Shown piece by piece: positions 1,311 through 36,594 of a stretch of 39,558 bases of DNA. This DNA comes from Roseicella frigidaeris. Lineage in GTDB: Bacteria; Pseudomonadota; Alphaproteobacteria; Acetobacterales; Acetobacteraceae. The stretch lies in the NCBI RefSeq assembly GCF_003258945.1, contig NZ_QLIX01000031.1, forward strand, positions 5,021-44,578. Reading direction: 5' to 3'. Within the stretch, counting starts at the first letter, position 1, and each line of letters starts with the position of its first letter. A program made the position numbers and the translations under genes. Below the pieces are notes generated by a model. That model saw only the letters and a program-made list of their open reading frames with translations. It was not told where the DNA came from and made no database searches.

Positions 1311-1350
1311 GCCACCCGTCACGGCCTGCCGCCACCCGTCACGGCCTGCC
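1311..1350. repeat. Two exact 20-bp tandem units
   Basis: The unit gccacccgtcacggcctgcc occurs twice in tandem (1311-1330, 1331-1350), and a third partial unit is the tail of the adjacent R1 element. It looks like local amplification of the R1 edge in the ugd upstream region. Confidence 0.85.
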
Positions 1351-1454
1351 GCCACCCGTTGCCCTGCCGCGGCTTCGCCGCGGCAGGCTGTGACGTGCCT
1401 GCGACCCGAGGCGAATCCCGGGGTCCCCGCGGCGGCGCGAAGCGGCGTCGTGGG
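1351..1454 (-). repeat. R1 two-hairpin 3'-end element, copy A (after galU)
   Basis: Read on the minus strand it begins CCCACGACG 16 nt after the galU stop. Hairpin I is followed by a CCCCGGGATTCG linker, CACAG, hairpin II (CCTGCCGCGGC, loop GAA, GCCGCGGCAGG; plus strand 1363-1387) and the tail GGCAACGGGTGGC. Hairpin II is a perfect 11-bp stem. It could act as a terminator or 3'-end stabiliser for galU; there is no U-tract. Confidence 0.85.
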
Positions 1455-1470
1455 AATCAGGCGTGGGGAT

Positions 1471-3533: not shown

Positions 3534-3618
3534 CCCGCCCGTTGCCCTGCCGCGGCGGGCCACGCCCCGGGCCCCTTGGCGAGGCCCCCCGCGGCGGCGC
3601 GCCGGCGACGGCGTGGCG
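3534..3618 (-). repeat. R1 two-hairpin element, divergent copy E (after J-protein gene)
   Basis: On the minus strand it begins CGCCACGCCGTCGC 15 nt after the J-protein stop. It keeps the right arm of hairpin I (GCGCCGCCGCGGGG) and ends CGCGGCAGGGCAACGGGCG like copy D. Hairpin II has lost its GGCGAAGCC centre. Similarity is lower than in copies A-D. Confidence 0.6.
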
Positions 3619-3633: not shown

Positions 3634-4368
3634 TCAAAGCAGGGTGTCGCGCGCCTGGTTGATCCGCGCCGCCAGCCAGTCGCTCCCCCCCTGGTCGGGA
3701 TGCGCCGCCCGCATCAGCCGGCGATGCGCGGCGCGGATCGCCGCCGCGTCCGCCCCCTCCGCCAGGCCGAGCACCGCCAGCGCCTCCTCCCGGCTCATCC
3801 GCCCGCCAGGCCCGGCGCCGGTCCCGCCACCGCCGCCCCCGCCGGCTCCCGCCCCGGGGGCCGCCTCGGCCGCCCGCCAGTCCGGCTCCACCCGGTCGAG
3901 CCAGGCCTCCAGCAGCGGCACGCTCTCCGGATCGGCGGCGCGGCATTCGGCGAGGAGGGCCAGCAGCTCGGCCAGGGTGAGCGCGGCGAGGTCGCGCCCG
4001 GCCTGCCGGCCGCGCCGCACCGTGCCGCTCATCCGCCCGCTGGCATGGTCGAGGCGCATGGCGAGGGTCGCCGTCTCCACCGCCGTCTCCCCCGGCCCGC
4101 CCGCGGCGGCGCCGGTCTCGCGGCGGAAGCGCCGGCCGGCGAGCGCCCCCTGCCCCCAGCGCCAGAGCAGCGGCGCGAAGAGGCCGATGGTCCAGAGCGC
4201 CTGCGCCCCGCGCCCGGTCAGCAGCACCAGCAGCAGCCCCGCGCCGCCGAGCGTGGCGGCGCCATAGACCGCGGCCTTGCGGATGGTCTCGACCCGCGCC
4301 GTGGCGAAGAGCCGCGCCAGCCAGAGCAGCAGCAGCAGCAGCCCGGCGCCGAGGGCGAGCCAGACCAT
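3634..4368 (-). CDS. Membrane-anchored J-domain protein
   Basis: Probable DnaJ-like co-chaperone of 244 residues. Two hydrophobic helices at the N-terminus (about residues 3-20 and 33-52) are followed by a charged middle region, an Ala/Gly-rich linker with a run of glycines, and a C-terminal J domain (about 190-244) that carries the HPD motif in RAAHPDQGGSDWLAARINQA. This layout resembles TIM14/DjlA-like membrane J-proteins that recruit DnaK to a membrane site. The ATG at 4368 has GAGGCGG upstream. The gene begins 7 bp after the stop of the VWA gene, so the two are probably co-transcribed. An R1-like element follows the stop. The client is unknown. Confidence 0.85.
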   Translation of the reverse strand: MVWLALGAGLLLLLLWLARLFATARVETIRKAAVYGAATLGGAGLLLVLLTGRGAQALWTIGLFAPLLWRWGQGALAGRRFRRETGAAAGGPGETAVETATLAMRLDHASGRMSGTVRRGRQAGRDLAALTLAELLALLAECRAADPESVPLLEAWLDRVEPDWRAAEAAPGAGAGGGGGGGTGAGPGGRMSREEALAVLGLAEGADAAAIRAAHRRLMRAAHPDQGGSDWLAARINQARDTLL

Positions 4369-4375
4369 CGCCGCC

Positions 4376-5077
4376 TCAGCGGCCCGGCGCCGGAAGCTGG
4401 CCGGCGATGCGCCGCGCCGCGCCGCCCGGCAGCCGGGCCAGCGCCTGCCGCCCGCCCGCGGCATAGACCGCGACCGCCCGCAGCAGCTCGCGCAGCGCCG
4501 CGGCGCTCGCCGCGTCGAAGGGCGCATAGGCGCCGCCCGAGAGCCGGGCGACCTGGCGCAGCGCCGCCGCCGCCTCCGGATGCCCGCCCTCGTGGAAGCA
4601 GAAGACCGGCGTGCCGTGCAGGCCGAGCTGGCCGGCGACATGGCAGAGCGGATCGACCGCCTCCTCCACCGCATCGCCGACGAAGACGAGGGCGTTCACC
4701 CGCTCGCGCCGCGTCTCCGCCAGCACGTGCTCGAGCAGGCGCTGGATCTGGGTCTGGCCGCCGAGGCATTGCACGCCGGCCATGCGCCGCGTCAGCTCGG
4801 CGGCATCGGCGAGGAAGGGCGTCGCCGCGAATTCGCGGAATCCCCGGTAATAGGCGAGCTGGATGGCGAGGCCGCCGAGGTCGCGCGTCGCCCCGAACAT
4901 CTCGCCCTGCAACTGGCAGGCGCGGTCCCAGCTCGGCTGGCGCGAGGCGGTGGCGTCGATGGCGAAGACGAGGCGGCCGCGGCGCCCGGAGGCCGGCCGC
5001 GCCTGCGGCATGGCCTCGACGCGCTGCAGGAAGGCCGCGACGGCGGCCGAGGCCGGCTTGTCGGGCAGGTTGCTCAT
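4376..5077 (-). CDS. VWA-domain protein, partner of the J-protein
   Basis: A 233-residue soluble protein with a von Willebrand factor A fold. It begins the VWA core with RLVFAIDATASRQPSW (a DxTxS MIDAS-type metal motif). Further features are GLAIQLAYYRGF, GGQTQIQRLLEHVL (contributing the MIDAS threonine region) and NALVFVGDAVEE. No signal peptide or membrane helix is seen. It is the first gene of a two-gene unit with the membrane J-protein 7 bp downstream, suggesting metal-dependent protein binding linked to chaperone recruitment. That functional link is an inference. The ATG at 5077 lacks a good ribosome binding site, so the start is moderately certain. Confidence 0.85.
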   Translation of the reverse strand: MSNLPDKPASAAVAAFLQRVEAMPQARPASGRRGRLVFAIDATASRQPSWDRACQLQGEMFGATRDLGGLAIQLAYYRGFREFAATPFLADAAELTRRMAGVQCLGGQTQIQRLLEHVLAETRRERVNALVFVGDAVEEAVDPLCHVAGQLGLHGTPVFCFHEGGHPEAAAALRQVARLSGGAYAPFDAASAAALRELLRAVAVYAAGGRQALARLPGGAARRIAGQLPAPGR

Positions 5078-10646: not shown

Positions 10647-11315
10647 ATGACCGGGACGGGGGCAACGGTGGCCCGGGCGGCAATCGGCGGGGCGCGACCG
10701 GAATTCCGCATCTCCGACGGGCTCACCCCCTACCCGCTGGCGCTGGAGGCGATGGCGGCGCGGGTGGCCGCCATCCGCGCCGGCACGGCGGAGGAGCTGG
10801 TCTGGTTCGTCGAGCATCCGCCGAGCTACACGGCCGGCACCTCGGCCGGCGCCGGCGACCTGCTCGATCGGCGCTTCCCGGTCTACCAGGCCGGGCGCGG
10901 CGGGCAGTGGACCTATCACGGGCCGGGGCAGCGCACCGCCTATGTCATGCTCGACCTGGCGCGGCGCGGGCGCGACGTGCGCGCCTATGTGCACGCGCTG
11001 GAGGACTGGGTGATCCGGGCGCTCGACCGCTTCAACGTCAAGGGCGAGCGGCGGGAGGGCCGCGTCGGCATCTGGGTGGCCGACCGGGCCACCGGCGCGG
11101 AGGCGAAGATCGGCGCCATCGGGGTGCGCGTGACGCGCTGGGTGAGCTGGCACGGCATCGCGCTGAACGTGGACCCGGACCTCTCGCATTTCGCCGGCAT
11201 CGTGCCCTGCGGGCTGCGCGAGTATGGCGTGACGAGCCTGCACCGGCTCGGCATCTCGGCGACGATGGAGGAGGCGGATGCGGCGCTGATGGCGGCGTGG
11301 GACGAAGTGTTCTAG
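10647..11315 (+). CDS. lipB: Lipoyl(octanoyl) transferase
   Basis: Transfers octanoyl from acyl carrier protein to lipoyl domains (pyruvate and 2-oxoglutarate dehydrogenases, GcvH), the first step of lipoate assembly in the cytoplasm. At 222 residues it matches the family. Visible motifs are [13 protein letters not shown], the [12 protein letters not shown] signature (about 84-95), KIGAIGVRV with the catalytic lysine K154, and IVPCGL with catalytic cysteine C188. LipA is not in the window. The gene stands alone, divergent from tRNA-Leu, and its stop is followed within 3 nt by an R1 element. Confidence 0.97.
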
Positions 11316-11318
11316 TGA

Positions 11319-11426
11319 CCCCACGAAGCCGCTGCGCGGCTCCGCGGGGACCCCGGGAGTCCCTCCGTACCGAAGTGACGTCACAGCCTGCCGTGGCGAA
11401 GCCACGGCAGGACACCGGGTGGCGAC
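11319..11426 (+). repeat. R1 two-hairpin 3'-end element, copy B (after lipB)
   Basis: Begins CCCCACGAAGCCGC 3 nt after the lipB stop. Hairpin I pairs this arm with GCGGCTCCGCGGGG across loop TGC (12 of 14 positions). Hairpin II is CCTGCCGTGGC, loop GAA, GCCACGGCAGG (11387-11411), a perfect 11-bp stem whose T-A pair replaces the C-G pair of copy A. The tail is accGGGTGGCGAC. It lies between convergent genes. Confidence 0.88.
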
Positions 11427-24105: not shown

Positions 24106-24579
24106 ATGACGCGCAATGCAGGACGGTCCCTCCCCCGGCTTCTCCCCAGGGCCGCAGCTGCGGCCTGCCTCGCCCTCGCCCTCGCCGCCCCGGGCCTGGC
24201 GCCCGGGCCGGCGGCCGCCGCCGAGCGCCATGCGGCCGGCAAGCCGGCCAAGGTGGCGCCGCAGCGCGGCAAGGCGAGCTATTACGCGCCCAAATTCAAC
24301 GGCAAGAAGATGGCGAATGGCGCCCGCTTCAACCCGAACAGCAATTCGGCGGCCCACAAGACGCTGCCGCTCGGCACCACCGCGCGGGTGACGAATCTCG
24401 AGAATGGCCGGACGGCCGAGGTGAAGATCGAGGATCGCGGCCCCTACAAGCCGGGGCGGGTGATCGATGTCAGCCCGAAGACGGCCGAGCGGCTCGACAT
24501 GAAGAAGGACGGCACGGCGCCGGTGGTGGTGCAGCCGGTGCAGGTGCCGGCGCAGGACCAGCGGGTGGCGGCGCAATAG
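24106..24579 (+). CDS. Exported RlpA-like double-psi beta-barrel protein
   Basis: A 157-residue exported protein with a signal peptide (hydrophobic AAAAACLALALAAPGLAPG, cleavage near AAAAER) and a single RlpA-like double-psi beta-barrel: GKASYYAPKFNGKKMANGAR, AAHKTLPLGTTARVTNLENG, VKIEDRGPYKPGRVIDVSPK. The DRGPY segment holds the expected catalytic-type Asp. RlpA proteins cleave or bind glycan strands at the septum; here there is no SPOR domain, so septal targeting is not evident. An R1 element begins 4 nt after the stop. Confidence 0.9.
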   Translation: MTRNAGRSLPRLLPRAAAAACLALALAAPGLAPGPAAAAERHAAGKPAKVAPQRGKASYYAPKFNGKKMANGARFNPNSNSAAHKTLPLGTTARVTNLENGRTAEVKIEDRGPYKPGRVIDVSPKTAERLDMKKDGTAPVVVQPVQVPAQDQRVAAQ

Positions 24580-24583
24580 CACT

Positions 24584-24695
24584 CCCCACGATGTCGCTTC
24601 GCGCCATCGCGGAGGCTCCGGGATTCGCTCCTGCACGTTGCATGTGGCACAGCCTGCCACGGCGAAGCCGCGGCAGGGCAACGGGTGGCGACGAG
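24584..24695 (+). repeat. R1 two-hairpin 3'-end element, copy C (after rlpA-like)
   Basis: Begins CCCCACGATGTCGC 4 nt after the stop. Hairpin I closes with GCGCCATCGCGGAG (11 of 14 positions pair, including a GATG/CATC change not seen in other copies). It then has the linker TCCGGGATTCGCTCC and hairpin II CCTGCCACGGC, loop GAA, GCCGCGGCAGG with one mismatch, and the tail GGCAACGGGTGGCGAC. It lies between convergent genes. Confidence 0.87.
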
Positions 24696-27939: not shown

Positions 27940-27971
27940 GCGACCGATGCTCCGGCAGGGCGTTCGGTCGC
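27940..27971. repeat. Hairpin GCGACCGA / TCGGTCGC
   Basis: Eight-bp arms at 27940-27947 and 27964-27971. The right side (tcggtcgcgtgcttcgcgcc) resembles 2551-2575 upstream of galU, so this may be a diverged dispersed element. Confidence 0.5.
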
Positions 27972-27994
27972 GTGCTTCGCGCCCCAGGCTTATA

Positions 27995-28052
27995 TTTTCA
28001 GAGCAATCTTCACCCGATCAGGGGAGTCCCCCTGATCGGGATCTGCTCTAGA
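27995..28052 (+). repeat. R3 hairpin element, copy 1
   Basis: The sequence has outer arms AGAGCA and TGCTCT around CCCGATCAGGGG-agtc-CCCCTGATCGGG, a perfect 12-bp stem with loop AGTC, and ends CTAGA. It is followed after 5 bp by a second copy in the same orientation. Confidence 0.9.
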
Positions 28053-28057
28053 CTATT

Positions 28058-28115
28058 GTTTTCAGAGCATCTTCACCCGATCAGGTGAGTCCCCCTGATC
28101 GGGATCTGCTCTAGC
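28058..28115 (+). repeat. R3 hairpin element, copy 2, overlapping the oxidoreductase stop
   Basis: Same as copy 1 with stem CCCGATCAGGtG-agtc-CcCCTGATCGGG (one unpaired position) and outer arms AGAGCA/TGCTCT. The terminal CTAG supplies the TAG stop codon (28111-28113) of the oxidoreductase gene on the minus strand. Confidence 0.9.
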
Positions 28116-29268
28116 GATAGGTGCTCGGCACCACCTCCCGCACCTGCCGCGCCCGCTTCTCCAGCCAATAGGCCTGGGCCGGCGGCACCAGGGCGAAGCG
28201 CGGATCGACGCCGAGCTTCTGCGCCGCGTCCATCGGCCAGTTCGGGTTGTAGAGCAGCTCCCGCGCCAGGGCGATGAGATCGGCCCGGCCCTCCTGCAGG
28301 ATCGCCTCGGCCTGGTCGGCATGCACGATGAGGCCAACGGCCATGCTCATGATCCCCGCCTCGCGCCGCAGCCGCTCGGCATAGGGCACCTGGTAGCCAT
28401 AGGTGACCGGGCCGGCGCCGACCACCGGCGCGCCGCTCATCCCCCCCGAGGAGCAGTCGATGACATCGACGCCGAGCGGCTTCGCCCGCCGGGCCAGCGC
28501 GACGCTCTCGGCCGGGCCCCAGCCGCTGTCGTCCTCGACCGAGAGGCGGAGAAACAGCGGCTTGTCCTCCGGCCATTCGGCGCGCACCCGCTCCACCACC
28601 TCGAGGCAGAAGCGCATGCGGTTCTCGAGGCTGCCGCCATACTCGTCGTTGCGGCGGTTGGCGAAGGGCGAGAGGAATTGGTGAATCAGGTAGCCATGCG
28701 CGCCATGGATCTCGAGCACCTCGAACCCCGCCTCGCGCGCCCGCCGCGCCGCCTGGCCCCAATGCTCGATCACCGCCGGGATCTCGTCCCGGCCGAGGGC
28801 GCGCGGCAGCGGGTCGCTCTCCGGCGCCGCCAGCGCCGAGGGGGCGACGAGGTCCCAGGCGTCCCATTCCTGGGCGCCGAGCGCCTCGGCCACCGCCGCG
28901 CGGGTCAGCGGCGCCCCGCCCTCCCAGGGGCGGAAGCGCCGCGCCTTGCGGCCGGAATGGCCGAGCTGGATGCCGGGCACCGCGCCCTGGGCGCGGATGA
29001 AGCGCACGCAGCGGGCGAGGCCGGGGACATGCGCATCCTCCCAGAGGCCGAGATCGCCGAGCGTGCCGCAGCCGCGCCGCTCGACCTTGGTGCTCTCCAT
29101 GATGACGAGGCCGGCGCCGCCCGCGGCGTAGCGGCCGGCATTCATCAGGTGCCAATCGGTGGCGAAGCCGCGCTCGGCGGCATATTGGTGCATCGGCGCG
29201 ACGACGACGCGGTTCTTCAGCGTCACGCCGCGGATCGTCAGCGGCGTGAACAGCAGCGGTGCATCCAT
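28111..29268 (-). CDS. Old-yellow-enzyme family NADH:flavin oxidoreductase
   Basis: FMN-dependent TIM-barrel reductase of the YqjM/xenobiotic reductase branch, 385 residues. The opening [22 protein letters not shown] is typical, followed by [11 protein letters not shown], the substrate-binding [33 protein letters not shown] and the C-terminal FMN phosphate region [17 protein letters not shown]. It reduces activated C=C bonds such as enones or nitro compounds; the physiological substrate is unknown. The ATG at 29268 is chosen because GGAGGGGAG lies upstream; an in-frame ATG at 29298 lacks one. The stop codon lies in an R3 repeat. Divergent from the SDR gene. Confidence 0.93.
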
Positions 29269-35830: not shown

Positions 35831-36481
35831 ATGCGTAAGAGTTTTGCAGTTCTGGCTGGCACCCTGGCGCTGAGCGTCGCCGCGGCGACGGGCGCCGTGG
35901 CGCAGACCGCGCCGCGCGGCAAGCAGGCGGGCGATGTCGTCATCGGGCTCGGCGCCATCGGCGTGCTGCCCAGCAACGGCGGCTCGACCAGCATCGGCGG
36001 CAAGCCGGAGGCGAGCAACGCCGCGACGGCCCAGCTCGACGTCACCTACTTCCTCTCGCCGATGCTGTCGCTGAACCTGATCGCCGCCACCACGCAGCAT
36101 GACGTGAGCGCCAAGGGCACGGCGCTCGGCGACGTGAAGCTCGGCCATGTCTGGGTGCTGCCGCCGACCCTGACGGCGCAGATCCACCCCTTCCCGACGG
36201 CGCGGCTCAGCCCCTATGTCGGCGCCGGCCTGAACTGGACCTTCTTCTACGGCTATGGCGGCGACAAGACGGCGCCGGTCTCGCGGGTGCGGATCGACAA
36301 CAGCCCGGCCTTCGCGATGAATGTCGGCCTGGATTACGAGCTGGCGCCGAACTGGCTGCTCAATGTCGATGCCAAGAAGATCATGCTGCGGACCGATGTC
36401 AGCGTGAACTCCGGCACGGTGACGGCGCGCGCCAACCTCGAGCCCTGGGTGGTCGGGGCCAGCGTGCGGTACCGCTTCTGA
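35831..36481 (+). CDS. ompW: OmpW-family outer membrane protein
   Basis: An eight-stranded beta-barrel of 216 residues. The signal peptide MRKSFAVLAGTLALSVAAAT ends near GAVAQ. Barrel strands include AQLDVTYFLSPMLSLNLIAA, GDVKLGHVWVLPPTLTAQIH, PFPTARLSPYVGAGLNWTFF (the OmpW hallmark), FAMNVGLDYELAPNWLLNVD and the C-terminal GASVRYRF ending in Phe, as required for outer-membrane insertion. It is expected to form a small hydrophobic channel. GAGAG precedes the ATG. An R1 element begins 4 nt after the stop. Confidence 0.94.
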   Translation: MRKSFAVLAGTLALSVAAATGAVAQTAPRGKQAGDVVIGLGAIGVLPSNGGSTSIGGKPEASNAATAQLDVTYFLSPMLSLNLIAATTQHDVSAKGTALGDVKLGHVWVLPPTLTAQIHPFPTARLSPYVGAGLNWTFFYGYGGDKTAPVSRVRIDNSPAFAMNVGLDYELAPNWLLNVDAKKIMLRTDVSVNSGTVTARANLEPWVVGASVRYRF

Positions 36482-36485
36482 TCAT

Positions 36486-36592
36486 CCCCACGACGTCGCT
36501 GGCGCGACGCCGCGGGGGCCCCGGGATTCGCTCCTGATCGCAGGGGCGTCACAGCCTGCCGAGGCGAAGCCTCGGCAGGGCAACGGGCGGGG
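36486..36592 (+). repeat. R1 two-hairpin 3'-end element, copy D (after ompW)
   Basis: Begins 4 nt after the ompW stop. Hairpin I: CCCCACGACGTCGC, loop TGGC, GCGACGCCGCGGGG (12 of 14 pair). Linker CCCCGGGATTCGCTCCTG. Hairpin II: CCTGCCGAGGC, loop GAA, GCCTCGGCAGG, perfect, with A-T at the position that is C-G in copy A and T-A in copy B. Tail GGCAACGGGCGG. It ends at the phnW stop on the opposite strand. Confidence 0.88.
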
Positions 36593-36594
36593 GC

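Follow-up and report, generated by a model that had tools for sequence, protein, structure and literature searches.

The window, a 39,558-nucleotide stretch of a Roseicella frigidaeris contig (NZ_QLIX01000031.1, positions 5,021 to 44,578), contains at 36486..36593 (+) a two-hairpin element, R1, that begins 4 nt past the TGA stop codon of a gene encoding an OmpW family outer membrane protein (35831..36481, +; PF03922, E 1.5e-39). This copy, designated E, is composed of hairpin I (HP-I; 36486..36517, +), which runs from CCCC to GGGG and was delimited by sequence and covariation, a linker, hairpin II (HP-II; 36555..36579, +), and a tail. HP-II has an 11-bp stem and a GAA triloop, and was identified by an exact pattern match (G000:C25:41575-41599, G000 being the R. 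frigidaeris genome) and by covariation. With a covariance model (CM) built from 28 R1 copies, copy E scored 107.4 bits. The first-pass annotation had listed five such stretches in the window (1351-1454 minus, 3534-3618 minus, 11319-11426, 24584-24695, and 36486-36592), and all five were found where it placed them, each starting 3-16 nt past a stop codon in the orientation of its host gene. A CM scan of the window with filters off gave four copies of 104-112 bits, the next best match reaching 24 bits. Besides copy E, these were copy A (1349..1455, -; 110.3 bits) behind a galU-type nucleotidyl transferase gene (1471-2460, minus; PF00483), copy C (11319..11425, +; 112.2 bits) located 3 nt past the stop codon of lipB (10647-11315, +; LplA/B ligase, PF21948), and copy D (24584..24691, +; 104.6 bits) located 4 nt past an RlpA/DPBB-type gene (DPBB_1, PF03330) that ends at 24579 (+). 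The fifth stretch, copy B (3534..3618, -), was matched as an 11-bit CM fragment only and is a decayed remnant, since its orthologous site in the sister species Roseicella sp. DB1501 (G024) carries a clear R1 (L183:3147-3253, 89.7 bits). Pfam matches upheld the galU-type, lipB, RlpA-type, and ompW assignments of the host genes, while the J-protein assigned to copy B (3634-4674, minus) was a weak one (DnaJ, 21.4 bits vs the 27.8-bit cut-off).

The copies are variable in their HP-I part. A piece of a second HP-I lies between the stop codon of the galU-type gene and copy A, the G024 orthologue of copy C has lost the half that contains HP-I, and the G024 site orthologous to copy E (L133, about 1330-1521) holds three HP-I units in tandem. 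Compared with shuffled sequences, the folding energies of three of the five window copies were unremarkable on this GC-rich background (z -0.51, -0.55, and -1.20), and those of the other two gave z of -2.92 and -3.55. The window also holds other repeats. At about 27950-28117 (minus side), as at L142, L184, L195, and L197 of G024, further palindromic MITE-like repeats are found at or just past stop codons; they begin with CTAGAGCAGATCCCGATC.. or AGCGTGA.., or read ACCATGATCCG..CGGATCATGGT, and at several G024 sites such a repeat is wedged between the stop codon and R1. Positions 2493-2605 match several places in G024 (C1:123643, C3:41881, C3:43015, and C47:26682) and apparently belong to another dispersed repeat.

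A covariance search of the own genome and of other Acetobacteraceae, which the first-pass annotation had proposed as a check, revealed a genome-wide family present in several genera. In the 5.82-Mb own genome, the HP-II pattern had 37 exact matches (reversed control, 0) and the CM gave at least 137 matches at E<=0.01, while at least 65 copies were found in G024. These counts are lower bounds, because the number of candidates scored per genome was limited in the model searches (150, 65, or 15, depending on the search). Three other Roseicella congeners gave 5, 1, and 0 matches, all of them weak (37.5-44.2 bits). With a wider model and 15 candidates scored per genome, 19 of 249 family genomes and six of 102 genera were positive. 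Among the best 80 of 82 matches listed, all named genomes were Roseomonas-like Acetobacteraceae, and the genera and sources among the matches listed were Roseicella sp. DB1501, Siccirubricoccus, Belnapia, Falsiroseomonas, Roseococcus, a Roseomonas mucosa MAG, and an Acetobacteraceae MAG; the relatives compared included Belnapia mucosa T6 (G036). A plasmid-borne element was rejected, as one R1 copy had no match among 72,556 plasmid records. Membership in a known Rfam family was likewise ruled out: in Rfam 15, only tRNA exceeded the threshold for the window, and a relaxed search of the copy E region returned a single match of 15.5 bits vs a gathering score of 50.

The position of R1 relative to genes was tallied for 112 of 129 own matches, picked by sequence score alone after leaving out one duplicate and 16 matches below 50 bits; two of the 112 overlap each other (L164 9811+ and 9874-), and gene ends were those called by a codon-usage gene caller made for this analysis. 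A same-strand gene was present upstream of 110 of the 112 copies. Among these sense copies, 85 start 1-8 nt past the stop codon, 16 start 9-60 nt past it (those inspected being preceded by a second HP-I unit or a piece of one), six start 61-160 nt past it (with a second tandem copy or other sequence between), and three overlap the called gene end. Each of the two antisense copies likewise lies close to the stop codon of the gene facing it, at 18 and 29 nt from the model end. Of 100 copies in G024 and other genomes, 93 were same-strand, two were opposite, and five could not be assigned (100 of 116 matches, the three duplicates and 13 weakest being left out). The genome-wide randomness of orientation and position that the first-pass annotation had named as speaking against its reading was therefore not seen. 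Among the gaps between genes at loci chosen for carrying R1, R1 occupied 60 of the 108 that were convergent and 45 of the 329 in tandem, and none of the 96 divergent ones. At L063, each gene of a convergent pair has its own facing R1 copy. At another convergent junction, shared by the own genome (L069:3065-3171) and G024 (L141:1788-1895), R1 lies in opposite orientations in the two species, each copy being sense to a different gene. R1-bearing genes end in TAG in 35 of 87 cases and in TAA in 15 of 87, vs 97 and 16 of 461 other genes. We also observed weaker folding towards the stop codon of own R1-bearing genes: windows of 34 nt with starts 28 to 12 nt ahead of it reached -6.6 to -8.7 kcal/mol, vs about -9.3 to -13 kcal/mol for the same windows at the ends of other genes.

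Structure conservation was analyzed using alignment A5, which holds 128 of 144 reference copies from several genera (the 11 lowest-scoring own and five foreign copies were left out by hand); the window copies, L106, and own copies scoring 80 bits or less had been excluded from the 144 references. Fourteen pairs of HP-I, 11 of HP-II, and four of a tested closing helix were scored. Double-change cells numbered 199 vs 61.9 ± 7.1 in shuffled alignments and 14-44 in slid controls, the 128 sequences being counted with their relatedness ignored. The covarying stems described by the first-pass annotation were thus borne out across several genera, and the lack of compensatory excess that it had listed as contrary evidence was not observed. 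At 32 orthologous sites of G000 and G024, divergence amounted to 4.8% in the gene, 8.5% in HP-II, 13% in the tail, 16% in HP-I, and 23% in the linker. Changes within pairs were counted at these sites after three of the 32 site pairs had been dropped (one L122 row with a MITE inside and two L008 rows). HP-II (29 pairs) showed four double changes that kept the base pair and one that broke it, and all 11 of its single-sided changes broke the pair, while HP-I (27 pairs) showed 13 kept double changes and six that lost the pair. As nine of the 13 kept HP-I changes fall at one base pair, the paired changes of this hairpin may partly reflect switching between two HP-I types, and tandem HP-I duplications are perhaps the route of such switching. 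Tandem HP-I units, up to three in number, were observed in L133 of G024, L044:2901-3097, L043, and L077, with HP-II staying single.

Two further structures were considered. A conserved middle hairpin in the linker was rejected, since its folding was about that of shuffled sequence (mean z -0.15, 127 copies, all genera). The linkers of L099, L039, and L082 (Roseococcus, G044, and Falsiroseomonas) do contain a strong third hairpin, unlike most Roseicella copies. The closing helix CCCG/CGGG was pairable in 87% of cells yet had no paired changes, and is therefore neither supported nor opposed.

The comparison of the two Roseicella species also revealed that R1 is a mobile, MITE-like repeat, a conclusion that rests on empty sites, with a target duplication being visible in a minority of copies. 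The full-length element is about 130 bp and has the ends GAAC[GT]CC...GGCGCTC; its terminal repeats are short and match imperfectly (some left ends read GAACGCC, vs GAGCGCC for the reverse complement of the right end). All seven young or nested copies checked had no counterpart at the orthologous G024 site. At L008, the sequence ..TAA|GAAC-[R1]-GGCGCTC|TAA.. precedes an older R1 in the own genome, and G024 has the older copy alone. Five others (L060, L070, L076, L048, and L021) were hand-picked from a ranking of copies by how intact the right end is (L057 and L181, ranked as high, lie outside the seven); their G024 sites hold a stop codon and the sequence following it in three cases, an older R1 in one, and another MITE-like repeat in one. 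The seventh, L168:4781, is antisense and adjoins the TGA of the facing gene, and its flanking triplets do not match. Among ten copies with both ends recognized, four had identical flanking triplets (TAA, TGA, TGA, and CTA; shuffles gave 1.4 on average, and 140 of 5000 reached 4) and six, including L168, did not; L191 was judged by eye to be a fifth identical case. In the CTA case, the first base of R1 completes a TAG stop codon.

These insertion footprints explain the spacing as well: the stretch of 1-8 nt, variable in length, that separates the stop codon from CCCC is most probably the left end of R1 itself, GAAC[GT], in many cases decayed, and the distance from stop codons is fixed because R1 inserts at the stop triplet. 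Since the position comes from mobile insertion, it is by itself no evidence of an RNA function. The first-pass annotation had concluded from the paired changes that the fold is selected, and had argued from the fixed place to a role at mRNA 3' ends; this interpretation is partly supported. Its implied picture of a vertically inherited, non-mobile RNA element selected at mRNA 3' ends would account for the strong covariation, for the sites common to the two Roseicella species, and for the five of 48 other-genus copies that lie behind orthologues of own R1-bearing genes, a rate that, like all sharing rates between species here, is biased because loci were selected for R1 presence. We regard it as very improbable, given that copies are cleanly missing in the sister species, that four of ten have identical flanking triplets, and that the element is nearly absent from three congeners.

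A search for the R1 right end in the own genome gave 21 places (nine with at most one mismatch and 12 with two; reversed control, 4), and one of the two-mismatch places is the outer end of an IS5-type insertion sequence (IS) in G000:C34. This IS has the ends GAGCGCCTAAC...GTTAGGCGCTC, also given as GAGCGCCT/AGGCGCTC, which match those of R1 over 7-8 bp, and its product matches DDE_Tnp_1 above the cut-off and DUF4096 (IS4/5 type) below it. A Siccirubricoccus relative of the IS has similar ends and TTA on both flanks, and a Belnapia relative starts with GAACGCC, like R1. Some IS5 groups make 3-bp TNA duplications. On the basis of these similar ends, the IS is possibly the mobilizer of R1. R1 resembles the IS5 family and its MITEs in the outer 7-8 bp and the triplet flanks, and differs in having no transposase, in hairpins without counterpart in the IS ends seen, and in that the presence of the IS does not track that of R1. 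Across 11 genomes, IS relatives were absent from the R1-bearing G044, G114, and G015 and present in the nearly R1-free G060 and G061; the R1-rich G024 holds short fragments similar to the IS but no full-length relative.

HP-I is better paired on the strand opposite to the gene. Read on the gene strand of alignment A5, it contains 140 A.C or C.A mismatches vs 21 G.T or T.G pairs, three pairs driving the excess, and these A.C cells are wobble pairs on the opposite strand. Accordingly, stability favored the antisense RNA of HP-I in 107 of 128 copies and the sense RNA in five; when HP-I was cut slightly longer, the antisense strand was favored in 75 of 94 own copies and the sense strand in 19. Single changes in HP-I at orthologous sites involved A.C in 25 cases vs eight that kept the pair. 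HP-II showed no strand preference (15 vs 11), nor did ordinary gene-end hairpins of the own genome have a significant asymmetry. A simple sense-RNA element fits poorly with these data, because HP-I pairs better on the antisense strand. An antisense-RNA role tied to convergent neighbors was rejected, as the asymmetry was similar at convergent and tandem sites (p = 0.06). The wobble asymmetry, its like trend at orthologous sites, and the HP-I loop, which is mostly TNC and thus GNA on the other strand, would suit a single-stranded-DNA mobile repeat of the REP/RAYT type whose HP-I is recognized on the bottom strand. This, too, we hold to be highly improbable: PF01797 (Y1_Tnp) was not found in G000 by a search that was positive in five of 14 control genomes, 33 of 39 relatives screened, a set that includes G000 but not G036 and G044, had none (the congener G062 has two), and triplet duplications together with IS5-like ends suit a DDE transposase better.

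We then considered what ordinary gene ends look like. At the loci chosen for carrying R1, average folding stability at 89 convergent ends without the element, and at 78 such tandem ends whose gaps exceed 120 nt, peaks about 4 nt past the stop codon (-14.6 and -15.4 kcal/mol, respectively, vs roughly -10 to -13 at other offsets), while operon-internal ends have no such peak (-10.1 kcal/mol). Inspection of the ompW site by eye revealed an unrelated GC hairpin right past the same stop codon in two congeners; in G232 the facing gene follows directly. The ompW orthologue in G082 (L213), a Siccirubricoccus, carries a MITE-like repeat beginning with TAGAGCGTGA exactly at the stop codon. G082 and G156 (Siccirubricoccus soli) belong to the same genus, g79. 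Since ordinary ends peak at the same slot, we infer that R1 replaces the ordinary gene-end hairpin with its own, and this replacement would be what lets it persist at the stop codon. As R1 sits in the ordinary stop-proximal hairpin slot, a role at the 3' end stays plausible, the most likely one being protection from trimming or assisted termination.

Two further explanations were considered. According to the first, R1 is a purely selfish MITE that prefers stop-like triplets and is purged elsewhere, and its hairpins serve transposition only or do nothing at mRNA 3' ends. Copies missing in the sister species, the patchy distribution among genomes, other MITE-like repeats at stop codons in related genomes, and the lack of a U-tract all agree with it. 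We nevertheless find it rather unlikely, for the following reasons: (i) retention is almost exclusively sense (110/112) and spares divergent gaps entirely (0/96); (ii) target-like triplets were available within up to 100 nt past 148 gene ends without R1 (on average 1.04 sense and 0.85 antisense) yet are hardly used, and since this availability would place about a third to half of the copies at the stop codon, target choice alone fails to explain the siting; and (iii) at orthologous sites, HP-II has diverged less than the linker has. According to the second explanation, R1 acts in translation, a hairpin 1-8 nt past the stop codon slowing terminating ribosomes. By analogy with Escherichia coli REPs within 15 nt of the stop codon, for which ribosome stalling is reported (PMC12306157), the 85 closely placed sense copies might be read in this way. 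Given that mismatches weaken HP-I on the sense strand and that a hairpin occupies the same position at ordinary gene ends, we consider such control improbable.

The absence of a U-tract, stated by the first-pass annotation, was confirmed within 220 nt of the stop codon: six or more T in 8 nt occurred at 2.3% of 87 R1 ends vs 2.9% of 448 others, and TTTTT at 2.3% of R1 ends vs 1.1% of other ends, so that T-rich stretches are no commoner behind R1 than at other gene ends. An intrinsic (Rho-independent) terminator was ruled out on this ground. Structured RNA 3' ends of such a kind are reported from Streptomyces clavuligerus, in which 353 lacked U vs 182 that were U-rich, and that study ascribes the former to terminators lacking U or to transcripts ended by Rho and guarded by a stem (PMC8269248). 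R1 is like them in being a GC-rich hairpin structure without a U-tract. The Streptomyces ends are individual hairpins at mapped RNA 3' ends, whereas R1 is one dispersed family known from its sequence.

The first-pass annotation knew no named element of this form. The Rfam result agrees with that, and among the papers listed from the open-licence literature on Roseomonas and Acetobacteraceae repeats, no title or abstract opening describes such a family; the kind of element, however, is known, as REP, ERIC, and other small repeats occur at gene 3' ends. RIME1 of Rhizobium is an intergenic repeat of about 108 bp with two palindromes, and resembles R1, by description, in size and palindrome number. 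ERIC has the structure of one long inverted repeat. Compared with it by description rather than by sequence, R1 differs in its two separate hairpins, its location at stop triplets, and its sense orientation; both are small, non-coding mobile repeats with copies at gene 3' ends. A length of 127 bp is given for RU-1 (PMC2759123), and the orientation of ERIC is reported to matter for its effect on mRNA and its stability (PMC2229807, PMC10969869). REPs are described as palindromic, often less than 20 bp from ORF 3' ends, and located between convergent and unidirectional genes (PMC3733652). Their CGTC families are reported to have no dedicated transposase, to be missing from Acetobacteraceae, and to have 8-9 bp stems starting with AT, 4-5 nt loops, a CGTC tag at the stem foot, and a CCA-like tail (PMC3733652). 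R1 is composite, about 130 bp long, and strictly oriented, with stems of 11 and up to 14 bp and mostly 3-nt loops. Membership in the CGTC REPs was rejected because of these stem and loop sizes and because CGTC is present, in most own copies, only 4 nt before HP-II. Lichenicola cladoniae belongs to the Acetobacteraceae. As 1,369 REPs were counted in this species (PMC12306157), palindromic repeats of this family of bacteria had been counted before. What is unusual about R1 is that it combines insertion at the stop triplet with retention almost only in sense orientation and with two hairpins of conserved structure in the slot at the gene end.

Taken together, these findings led us to propose that R1 is, with fair probability, a non-autonomous MITE of about 130 bp that inserts at stop-like triplets and is retained as a replacement two-hairpin gene ending. 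The element, whose short ends are inverted (GAAC[GT]CC ... GGCGCTC) and for which an IS5-family transposase is a candidate mobilizer, would insert at TGA, TAA, or CTA, leaving a 3-bp duplication that is visible in some copies. The host gene would keep or regain its stop codon, and R1 would become the start of the 3' untranslated region, its two hairpins probably standing in for the displaced native one. There it may block 3'-to-5' decay and/or aid the ending of transcription where T-rich stretches past genes are rare, which would make insertion at a stop codon tolerated or even useful. A bolder version, which we put forward tentatively and as less probable, sees R1 as a portable gene ending that targets the stop codon, keeps or rebuilds it, and replaces the displaced hairpin with its own two-hairpin 3' end, HP-I being adapted to the antisense strand and HP-II to either strand, such that the element might insulate genes on both sides and might be retained even behind housekeeping genes.

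The R1 family carries a caution: covarying stems at a set distance from stop codons can stem from a mobile repeat, and since such a repeat gives the same pattern, covariation and a fixed place alone prove no RNA regulator. It also suggests concretely how mobile DNA could come to lie behind housekeeping genes, namely by landing on the stop codon and supplying a replacement 3' structure. The copies, at least 137 here and at least 65 in the sister species, some of them present on one side only, amount to natural experiments that can show which features a gene ending requires in a GC-rich bacterium.
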